From Yoonia sp. (lineage in GTDB: Bacteria > Pseudomonadota > Alphaproteobacteria > Rhodobacterales > Rhodobacteraceae): DNA of 62,587 bases. Positions 17,110-45,925 of the stretch are shown one piece after another. Below the pieces are notes generated by a model, which searched no databases, was not told the DNA's origin, and saw only the letters and a list, made by a program, of their open reading frames with translations. The stretch covers positions 1 to 62,587 of the forward strand of contig NZ_JAFMHR010000002.1 of NCBI RefSeq assembly GCF_017854415.1, in the 5' to 3' direction. A program made the position numbers and the translations under genes. The first letter of the stretch is position 1. Each line of letters opens with the position of its first letter.

Positions 17110-17412
17110 ATGCGATATCAGTTGGCTGGGACCATACTTGTGGCAGCGTCATTGGCTGCATGCAATACCGCATCGCCGGGGTTTATGGGGGCGGATGTGC
17201 AAACAGTGACTGTTGATGGCAGCACATTTGATGTCCGCCGCAAAGGTGATCGCGTCGAGTTAATCCGCACTAACCGCGAGGCGGTTTTTTCTTTGCGCAG
17301 CATTGTTCCGCGCGCGGCTGAGGCAGTTGTCGCGGCAACAGGCTGCGCCCCAAAAGACGGAACTTGGACTGGTGATCAAGCCGTCATGCGGGTGCGGGTG
17401 GACTGCCCCTAG
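17110..17412 (+). CDS. Small putative lipoprotein/secreted hypothetical protein
   Basis: 100 aa; MRYQLAGTILVAASLAACNT: signal peptide with lipobox-like LAAC. Confidence 0.6.
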   Translation: MRYQLAGTILVAASLAACNTASPGFMGADVQTVTVDGSTFDVRRKGDRVELIRTNREAVFSLRSIVPRAAEAVVAATGCAPKDGTWTGDQAVMRVRVDCP

Positions 17413-20400
17413 GTCAGTAATCCGGCAATCCGCGCACGGGCCGAATTGGATTTGGGCTGCCAGAGATTGCGATCAATCGCTTCTTGCAGGCGCTGGGCGA
17501 TCTCTTTGAGGGCAGGCGCATTTGCATCGGCGATAAACGCGCGGGTATCGTCGTCTTTGATGAATGCTTCTTCAACCAAATCGAAATGGTGGTTGCGCAC
17601 GGCACCTGTCGTAGCCGCAAAGGCAAAGAGATAGTCCACTGTTGCGGCAATTTCGAAGGCGCCTTTGTAGCCGTGCCTTTTAACGCCATCGATCCACTTT
17701 GGGTTCACTACGCGCGAGCGGACAACCCGTCCGATTTCATCATCCAAAGTGCGGATCACCGGTCGTTCGGGGCGTGAATGGTCGTTGTGATAGATGGGCC
17801 TGTCTTGACCTTGCAGTGTGCTGATCGCCGCCGCAGCACCGCCTTCAAATTGGTAGTAGTCGTCGCTGTCTAGAATGTCGTGTTCGCGGTTATCTTGGTT
17901 TTGCACGATGGCTTCGGTTTGCGAAAGGCGTGCCTCAAAAGCGTTGCGGGCTTTGTGGCCTTGCGCGCCTTTGCCGTAGGCGTAGCTGCCCCATTCCAGA
18001 TAGGCCTCTGCAAAGTCGGATTTATCCGCCCAGATGCGTTCGTCAATTAATGCCTGCAGGCCTGCGCCGTAAGCACCGGGTTTGGAACCAAAGACGCGGG
18101 TTTGGTCTTCGCCTGCCTGGGTACGTGCCGCGGCAGGGTTTAGATCGGCGGGCTCGTCAAGGTCTTGGACTGCGCGGGATGCTGAATCGACTAGGGCAAT
18201 CAACTGTGGGAATGCGTCACGGAAAAAGCCCGAGATGCGCAAGGTGACATCAACTCGAGGCCGTCCAAGAACCGATTGCGGCAAGATTTCAAATCCAGTG
18301 ACACGCCGGTTGGCGCTGTCCCATGTTGGTTTGACGCCCATCAGCGCGAGTGCCTGCGCGATGTCATCGCCGCCCGTGCGCATGTTGGCGGTCCCCCATG
18401 CTGTGATCAGCATGCTGCGCGGCCAGTCACCATGGTCTTGAAGGTGCTTTTCGATCAATAGGTTCGCCGATTTCCATCCTAGCGCCCAAGCCGTTGGGGT
18501 CGGGACCGCGCGGCTGTCGACCGAGAAAAAGTTGCGGCCAGTTGGCAACACGTCCAAACGCCCACGAGTTGGTGCACCTGATGGGCCGGGATGGACGAAC
18601 TTTCCGGCCAATCCAGTCAGCAAGGCGGTCCCTTCGGCAGAGCCACAAGTTTGGATTGTCGGCAAGATACGTTCGGCGATCTCTGCTGCAACCAGCGCGC
18701 TTTGCGGACCTATTGCAGGTGTTTCCCCGCTCACGATCCGCTGGCTGAGCGCTTCGAGTTTTTCAACGGTGTCGCCATTGCTGCGCCAATGGGTTTCATC
18801 CAGCAATGCATCCGGTTTTTCTGGTGCAGGTGCCGCGAGATCGCAATCAAGCGGGTCGATTGAAAGGCCAAGGTCTTTCGCCAAAGCACGCAACAAAGAG
18901 GCGTCTCGGCCTTTGCCTGCACCGCGTGGCACGCGCGCCAGAGCAATCGCCAGATCGCGTTCTTGTTCACCTGTCGGGGACTGCCCGAAAATGTGCAGAC
19001 CGTCGCGGATTTGCGCTTCTTTGAGCTCGCAAAGATACGCATCAAGTTTGCCCAGATCACCGTCGCTATCGCCCGTGAAGCCGGCGTCTTTGCCAAGGCC
19101 CGTCACATCCGAAAGCGACAAAATCTCTTTGCGTAAATGCGCGATGCGGCGTGGATCGACGCCTGCTGCCTCGTAATACTCATCAACCAATGCCTCGAGA
19201 TCGCGAAGCGGTCCGTAGCTTTCGGCGCGTGTTAGCGGCGGGGTGAGGTGGTCGATTATCACCGCGGATGCGCGCCGTTTGGCCTGCGTGCCTTCGCCGG
19301 GATCGTTCACGATGAAGGGGTAAAGATGTGGTGTGGGGCCAAAGACGGCCTCGGGCCAGCAGGTTTCTGACAATGCCACCGCTTTACCCGGTAACCATTC
19401 AAGGTTGCCGTGTTTGCCCATATGCACGATCGCGTCGGCACCCCAGTGGTGCCGCAGCCAGAAATAGAATGCCAGATAGTTGTGGGGCGGGACCAGATCG
19501 GGGGAATGGTAGGTTTCGGTTGGATCAACATTGTAGCCACGTGCAGGCTGTAGCCCGACGACCGCATTGCCGAAACGGTGGATGCTCAAGGCGAAACCTG
19601 TCCGTGGGGTGTCTGTCGGAGCCTCCGGCGGAGGTATTTTTGAACAGAAGAAGACGTCGTCTTCGGGTGCGCCCCAGCGCGATGTGATTTGTTCTTTGAC
19701 GTCCCAAGGCAGTGCGTCGAAGTGCTGTTTGTAGGCGTCTAAAGCGAAAAATTCGCCGCCCTCTTTTTCGGCGCGATCGGTGAGCCAGTTTGTTGGACCT
19801 GCCATCATTTGCGCCATCAAGGTGGCACTGTCGACTGGGGGTGTCACCGCATGGCCGCTGGATTTCAGCAAGTTGAGAACATGTACCGTTGCTGCAGGGG
19901 TGTCGAGGCCGACACCATTGGCCAGCCGCCCGTCTTTGTTGGGGTAGTTGGCAAGGATCAGGGCCGTCTTTTTGTCAGCAGCGGCAGTGTTGCGTAGATT
20001 AGCCCAGCCTTTGACCAACTGCGTCACAAAATCAACGCGGTCGCCGCGTGCTTGATATGTGGCGATGGGGCATTCGGTGGCTTCGTCAAAGAACGCTTCG
20101 CCTTTGAAGCTGACTGCACGGGACAGGATGCGCCCGTCGACCTCTGGCAAGGCCACATTCATGGCGATATCGCGCGCGGTCAGGCCGTGTAATCCATCGG
20201 CCCATGATGCTTCTGATGCGCCTGAAAGGATGACTTGAAAGATGGGGGCGTCGTTGCTGAGCAGCGGATTGGTTGGGCTGTCGTCGCCATCATGTGGGCT
20301 GCCCACTGCGAATGCGGTGCAGTTGAGGATTACATCGGGCGGTGCGGACGCGAAGATTTGATCAAGTGTGGCGGTGCTGACAGGGTCTTTGAGGCTGGCC

Positions 20401-21110
20401 ACGAAAATCGGCAAAGGGTTCAGGCCTGCGCGTGATAGACTGCGCACCATGCGGTTGATGGGGTTAAGACCGCCGCCTTGGACCAGTGCGCGGTAGAAAA
20501 CGATTGGCACGATTGGTGCGCCATCCGTCCAGCCCGCTTTGGCCGCGGACAGATCAGCGATGCCTGCGCCGGGCCAATAGACGCCTGCACGTAACAACGG
20601 GCTTGGTGCGCTTGGCTTTTCGCCACCATCAAGCATGGCCTTCGCGTAGGCCAGCATATTAGCGCTATTCTGCGGGCCGCCTTCGACCAGATAAGACCAC
20701 AGCGTGTCGTAGTCTTCGCCGCTGACGGTCGAGAGTTCGCGCAGTTCTTGATCGGGTTTGTCGTCGCCGGGCAATGCCGCAAAGGGGATGCCAGCCTCGC
20801 GCAAACGCGCTGCATATTGGACCAGTCCATATTTCCAATAGCCCGCGCCGCCCAATATGCGGGCAATCACCAACCGTGATTTTGTGGCGCAATCATCCAG
20901 ATGCAGATCAACCGACATCGGGTGGATCAAATGCATCATGTTTGCCAAGCGCAGGCTGGGTGGGGCCGTCATTTCTGATCGCGCCTCTGACAATGCTGCC
21001 AACTCGGTATCGGCCGCCGAGATAATCACAACATCGGCGGGGGTTTGCCCCAGATCGACCGGTTCGGTGCCGTCAGAAATCGCACCGGGTGTTGCGGCTA
21101 GCAGGTGCAT
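17409..21110 (-). CDS. cobN: Cobaltochelatase subunit CobN
   Basis: 1233 aa; [73 protein letters not shown] is diagnostic of CobN/BchH. Confidence 0.96.
   Translation of the reverse strand: [1233 protein letters not shown]
19618..19653 (+). repeat. Dispersed repeat copy embedded in cobN coding sequence
   Basis: GGAGCCTCCGGCGGAGGTATTTTTGAACAGAAGAAG; antisense reads [13 protein letters not shown] in the CobN frame. Confidence 0.7.
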
Positions 21111-26573: not shown

Positions 26574-26608
26574 GGAGCCTCCGGCGGGGATATTTAGGCT
26601 CTGAAGAA
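26574..26608 (+). repeat. Dispersed repeat copy
   Basis: GGAGCCTCCGGCGGGGATATTTAGGCTCTGAAGAA in the gap between smc and the M19 dipeptidase. Confidence 0.65.
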
Positions 26609-26612
26609 CAGT

Positions 26613-34063: not shown

Positions 34064-34100
34064 TCATCATCTTGCCCTGAAAACTCCCGCCGGAGGCTCC
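34062..34100 (-). repeat. Dispersed repeat copy (minus orientation)
   Basis: Reverse complement reads GGAGCCTCCGGCGGGAGTTTTCAGGGCAAGATGATGAT; matches the copy at 45881 including the GGCAAGATGATRA tail. Confidence 0.65.
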
Positions 34101-42537: not shown

Positions 42538-42574
42538 GGATGCCTCCGGCGGAAGTTTTTTAGGAATAAGAAGG
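42538..42574 (+). repeat. Dispersed repeat copy
   Basis: GGATGCCTCCGGCGGAAGTTTTTTAGGAATAAGAAGG between the third def-like gene and fmt. Confidence 0.65.
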
Positions 42575-45880: not shown

Positions 45881-45925
45881 GGATGCCTCCGGCGGGAGTT
45901 TAAGAGGCAAGATGATAAGGATAAG
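45881..45925 (+). repeat. Dispersed repeat copy
   Basis: GGATGCCTCCGGCGGGAGTTTAAGAGGCAAGATGATAAGGATAAG, ending just before the AAA ATPase ATG at 45929. Confidence 0.65.

Follow-up and report, generated by a model that had tools for sequence, protein, structure and literature searches.

The cobN locus and its repeat copy

The window, meaning the whole stretch of 62,587 nucleotides analysed here, is one contig of a 3.12 Mb genome (G000; 244 contigs, 93% complete). One of its ORFs was assigned to cobN by a match to Pfam PF02514 (1218 bits) and by a full-length alignment to the CobN of PDB entry 9uk9, and its nearest relatives are CobN proteins from Yoonia. This ORF contains one copy of a short dispersed repeat, and further copies lie between genes of the window (Table 1).

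Table 1. Features of the window, with positions counted from its first letter
Feature	Position	Strand	Remarks
cobN, cobaltochelatase large subunit	17409..21110	minus	1233 aa, uninterrupted ORF; hosts the in-frame repeat copy
Additional codons flanking the cobN repeat at its core end (TDTPRT and neighbour)	19600..19617	minus	Not repeat-derived letters
Repeat copy in cobN	19618..19653	plus	Subfamily C: GGA GCCTCCGGCGG AGGTATTTTTGAACAGAAGAAG
Intergenic copy, subfamily B	26574..26609	plus	4 nt past the stop codon of a 1151-aa ORF
Intergenic copy, subfamily A	34065..34100	minus	Flanked by two plus-strand genes
Intergenic copy, subfamily E	42539..42574	plus	Flanked by two plus-strand genes
Intergenic copy, subfamily A	45882..45917	plus	Flanked by two plus-strand genes

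On the minus strand, the cobN copy reads TTC TTC TGT TCA AAA ATA CCT CCG CCG GAG GCT CC, i.e. FFCSKIPPPEA. In line with the original prediction, it leaves the ORF open from end to end, and the translation proposed for it was correct. The 36-mer occurs only once in the window, where shuffled sequences would be expected to hold none. It had also been described as nearly the same as the intergenic copy at 26574. Both indeed belong to one family, but they agree at only 28 of 36 positions and represent different subfamilies, the 26574 copy having the form GGATATTT...GCTCTGAAGAA, unlike the CobN copy with AGGTATTTTTGAACAGAAGAAG. By comparison, the CobN copy matches another intergenic copy (L011) over 33 nt, from the core through the tail end, with no mismatch.

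The CobN of the window exceeds the shortest repeat-free form by approximately 13 residues, TDTPRT included, which is more than the repeat itself. The codons on the TDTPRT side are missing in repeat-free CobN and are partly kept among relatives with differing subfamilies. Empty homologues and the 33-nt identity to L011 show that the Pro-rich segment originates from the repeat, as an insertion, as had been suggested; the core-side TDTPRT part is non-repeat sequence. Just before the insert (19653-19661, minus), this CobN has DVF, while nearly all others have DPF with a nearly invariant Pro.

An AlphaFold model of CobN residues 384-709, built with 42 sequences, was of moderate quality (mean pLDDT 70.5, pTM 0.62) and matched solved CobN/ChlH structures. 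The insert is modelled as a loop that connects a helix to a beta-hairpin; at its centre (fragment residues 108-113), pLDDT falls below 50. This moderate evidence points to a flexible loop.

A family of 33-36-nt repeats in Rhodobacteraceae

The exact core GCCTCCGGCGG was found 55 times in G000, compared with 2 matches for the reversed pattern. A single one of these matches, without the element tail, is due to chance, and the remaining 54 are element copies, which were sorted by tail. A longer repeat pattern gave 25 matches in the same genome vs. none for its control. In the common subfamilies, the unit consists of the 11-nt core and a tail of approximately 22 nt, which amounts to about 33 nt (33-36), a multiple of three. 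The tails define subfamilies A (GAGTTTnnnnGGCAAGATGATRA), B (GGATATTTATGCTCGGAAGAA), C (AGGTATTTTTGAACAGAAGAAG), D (GAGTATTTGAACAAAGCGAGG) and E (AAGTTTTTTAGGAANAAGAAG); a few copies in G000 carry odd tails that fall outside these groups.

Some form of the pattern was present in 309 of 397 Rhodobacteraceae genomes, with a maximum of 188 copies and almost none for the control. Annotated plasmids of Ruegeria, Paracoccus, Dinoroseobacter and others also carry the repeat, outside annotated genes wherever annotation exists; three of these cases were inspected closely.

Folding gave no support for a strong RNA structure of the repeat: its energy was no better than that of shuffles, and subfamily E hardly folds. 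The outer pair of a 9-nt core nevertheless covaries, being mostly G..C, with several C..G copies across several genomes. The CobN copies comprise 38 with G..C, 6 with C..G and none with a mixed pair; among the copies listed, mixed pairs were present only in matches without the element tail. An Rfam scan of the window gave no match, and neither the CobN copy nor the one at 26574 was found to be flanked by terminal inverted repeats. Weak matches to Pseudomonas phages (E ~0.2) were the only indication of a phage origin, which was discarded. The literature covered on Roseobacter, Rhodobacter and Octadecabacter repeats, largely from outside the subscription journals, does not describe the family, and the core sequence turned up only in four unrelated papers.

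Two further patterns were noted. In five genomes (G426, G280, G029, G009 and G003), inverted pairs of copies lie approximately 45-175 nt apart and resemble paired REP elements. In G009, G019, G003 and G007, a separate conserved sequence, [GC]CCTCCGGCGGC(T/A)ATCTTAGCCGGCGGC, has the core in common with the family, but not the tail, and looks like a different hairpin.

The CobN site in related genomes

We compared 110 CobN loci at the stretch from DPF to FxLS. Its length is 5 residues in the shortest CobNs and about 10 in a second common form that lacks the repeat, while carriers mostly have 13-20. Counterparts with an empty site read DPFIHADGFALS in G012, DPFFDGQGFKLS and similar elsewhere, and FARELDAFAL in the solved CobN 9uk9. 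The carriers include nearly all Yoonia/Loktanella, and at least five further genera are represented, namely Pseudooceanicola and Marimonas as well as a Litoreibacter, a Jannaschia and a Pseudooctadecabacter. Decayed, remnant-like segments were observed in Celeribacter, a Maritimibacter and Limimaricola hongkongensis. Site, frame and orientation are identical throughout the carriers. The alignment of homologues thus bore out the insertion that had been anticipated, but not its restriction to one lineage, since the same site is occupied in many genera. The repeat explains the odd Pro-rich loop of CobN alignments.

A readable CobN site was also available for 48 further genera. Nine of these have an insert or a remnant, and all nine carry the dispersed family too. 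The segment was not found conserved in CobN of genomes without the family, as expected for a repeat origin: none of the nine family-less genera has the insert, a contrast that falls short of significance by itself (Fisher p = 0.18).

A CobN tree computed with the insert left out requires at least 13 changes in the presence of the insert and at least 18 changes of subfamily among its bearers. The insert was lost imprecisely in G012, where a scar is left, and is retained in the sister genome G018. In two CobN proteins of Pseudooceanicola (L089 and L113), extra residues lie between DPF and the repeat; those of L089 resemble a duplication of the DDPF site and are possibly a trace of an insertion event.

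In-frame copies in BchB and PutA

The genome-wide list for G000 contained two more in-frame copies, both in inter-domain linkers. In PutA (L003), the insert TSSEPKYPRRRLQ is located between the proline and aldehyde dehydrogenase domains, in an ORF that runs off both ends of the extracted slice. In BchB (L162), the insert DASGGSLDSKMIE separates the nitrogenase-like and PCP_red domains. The three coding copies use different strands or frames of the element (BchB the other strand, PutA another frame). In 11 of 25 relatives, BchB has the repeat at a single linker site; the subfamilies differ, but all of these copies include the codons GCC TCC GGC GGG. In PutA, the repeat is present in some species and in a decayed form in others.

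Other candidate in-gene copies (L017, L022, L140 and antisense ORFs) were dropped because the starts had been mis-called, the ORFs were spurious or the cores matched by chance. A type D copy (L006; G000:C197, minus) supplies the final codons (FEILPPEAPTLAKGMTL) to a small membrane-like ORF that immediately precedes a gene for an iron-sulfur protein, and may be a fourth coding copy.

Subfamily differences at the coding sites

Different subfamilies occupy the CobN site in different species, and they resemble copies of the same genome. For 34 in-gene copies of CobN, BchB and PutA from 19 genomes, the own genome had a mean rank of 2.6 (expected, 10) and was ranked first for 14 copies, a result matched in none of 5000 permutations, which do not fully remove shared ancestry and in which the repertoires of larger genomes were sampled in part. 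A rare form, CGGTATTTTTGAACAAAAGAAG, is present both in cobN of G018 and elsewhere in that genome. Likewise, cobN of G015 and G027 contains GGCAAAATGATA, which is also present between genes there, and their bchB contains GGGCAAAATGATA.

Sister loci point to a probable exchange in place. L046 and L048 have the core in common and agree at 23 of 24 nt in the non-repeat flank, while the tails, from subfamilies D and B, agree at only 11 of 22 positions. Other sister pairs with different subfamilies have flank identities of 50-80%, compared with 34% for distant pairs. Hybrid copies were also found in CobN, i.e. L059, with the core side of B and the tail of C, and L055 (G010), which mixes two subfamilies.

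Codon choice within the CobN repeat differs from that in the rest of the gene: Pro is encoded by CCG in 41 of 49 cases (38% usage elsewhere in CobN) and Glu by GAG in 47 of 49 (39%). Synonymous positions within the repeat hardly vary; what is conserved is the DNA family and not the peptide alone.

Discussion

The repeat probably represents an element family similar to the Rickettsia palindromic elements (RPEs), apparently unrelated to them, whose coding copies are still being overwritten in place by genomic copies. The 33-36-nt elements would reside mainly just past gene 3' ends in Rhodobacteraceae, and their 33-nt length, together with the absence of stop codons from most frames, would make them tolerable in frame within the flexible linkers of CobN, BchB and PutA. 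At the CobN site, an old insertion was probably followed by repeated overwriting of the coding copy, through a process resembling gene conversion or template switching rather than through a new targeting of the site each time. The added CobN peptide would then lack a dedicated function and be tolerated as a loop that is probably disordered. Patchy conversion of this kind is consistent with hybrids between subfamilies, L059 being one example. Conversion tracts of approximately 25-30 nt are short for RecA-type recombination, which counts against overwriting, and we know of no such short-tract conversion process in these bacteria. In addition, the patchy presence across the tree (13 changes) leaves room for some repeated insertion, and flanks are strongly shared by a single sister pair, the others reaching only moderate values (0.5-0.8).

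A broader reading, to which we give even weight for and against, is that the coding sequences of CobN, BchB and PutA, all core metabolic enzymes, take part in the genome-wide concerted evolution of a non-coding repeat, in which ORF segments of about 30 nt would repeatedly be replaced by intergenic copies via an undescribed short-tract conversion or mobility system.

Several other explanations have to be weighed against in-place overwriting. The repeat could be a functional conserved site, such as a DNA-binding site, an uptake-like signal or an RNA-processing site, with species dialects arising by selection or transfer bias and the in-gene copies serving as further sites. The occurrence of the core across several hundred genera would fit this, as would the covarying outer core pair, where mixed pairs are absent from all listed copies bearing the element tail, and the synonymous sites kept in coding copies; DNA uptake sequences with dialects and intragenic copies are known (PMC3630211). 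However, several unrelated tail subfamilies coexist within one genome, copies number in the tens rather than the thousands typical of uptake sequences, and many genera have no copy at all, so that we hold this explanation to be possible but doubtful.

Less probable still is recurrent targeted insertion, whereby a mobile unit would re-insert at the CobN, BchB and PutA sites and be lost in between, each change of subfamily being a new insertion. Such a unit might be guided by GAAGAA micro-homology between its tail end and the Phe-Phe codons, and GAAGAA or GATGAA is already present at the junction in many empty CobNs. The patchy presence across genera and the many near-identical copies per genome also agree with it. 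In contrast, sisters with different subfamilies have common non-repeat codons beside the repeat that are absent from empty genes, and the loss in G012 was not a precise excision. No target-site duplication was recognised beyond GAAGAA-type micro-homology at one junction. Further, Y1/RAYT transposases (PF01797) gave no match in G000 (93% complete), and they scored above the cut-off in 6 of 41 congeners, none of them the copy-rich G003, G009 or G016.

We likewise regard it as unlikely that the intergenic copies are intrinsic transcription terminators with the coding copies as by-products. According to gene calls from a simple codon-usage caller, 41 of 44 classifiable spacers with copies in G000 border the 3' end of one or more genes, which leaves just 3 divergent spacers, and some subfamilies have a short GC stem followed by a T-run, as a terminator would. 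Between tandem genes, however, copies lie in both orientations (17 in the same direction vs. 12 opposite), and because of this mixture a plain terminator is an insufficient account. Folding at the level of shuffles speaks against it as well, and termination needs no conserved 22-nt tail; a terminator scan of the 33-47 kb region did not list the three repeat copies located there. Finally, an ordinary variable loop with a chance likeness to the repeat can practically be dismissed, for while loop length varies in all CobNs, the 33-nt exact intergenic match, the subfamily match over 19 genomes and the codon-level conservation refute it.

With regard to known systems, the repeat family is best set beside the RPEs, to which the original prediction had drawn a parallel. 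In both cases, dispersed alphaproteobacterial repeats lie in frame inside unrelated metabolic genes with the ORFs unbroken (PMC3767692, PMC10969869), orthologues carry the insert at the same place, and loop positions are used. Different element groups at one gene site have been noted for RPEs too (PMC3767692, PMC10969869). The parallel thus held for in-frame spread and was weak for a palindromic nature, given folding at shuffle level, although the outer core pair covaries. RPEs are approximately 100-150 bp with a long palindrome, unlike the 33-36-nt repeat, which in turn is found in free-living hosts, lies mostly between genes, comprises several tail subfamilies and follows, in its coding copies, the subfamilies of its own genome. 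Because length and host differ, we classify the family as a like phenomenon and not as an RPE, a separation made by description.

REP/REPIN elements are likewise short, dispersed, mostly extragenic, sometimes in inverted pairs and represented by several subfamilies per genome (PMC3116915). They are moved by RAYT (Y1) transposases (PMC3116915), a partner that was rejected for the repeat in G000 with no PF01797 match. A strong hairpin was not evident in the repeat, whose short core stem covaries although its folding energy is not significant. Neisseriaceae uptake sequences resemble the family in having species-specific versions of one short repeat, intragenic copies included, but they reach thousands of copies, usually with one dialect per genome (PMC3630211), in contrast with tens of copies and several unrelated tails together in Rhodobacteraceae. 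MITEs, too, are small, non-autonomous-looking repeats that are sometimes fused in frame with genes (PMC10969869), whereas the present repeat has no recognised terminal inverted repeats, target duplications or known partner transposase.

Rickettsia and Wolbachia are the main known cases in which small repeats have spread in frame into proteins. In the present case, a much shorter, apparently unrelated family is found in free-living, cultivable marine bacteria of many genera, with repeated replacement at the same gene site between close species. Both the self-copying of tiny elements and their effects on host enzymes could be tested in culture through this family. Spreading non-coding DNA appears to keep rewriting parts of working enzymes, and if the broader reading is true, protein loops would be rewritten in single steps with whole new peptides.
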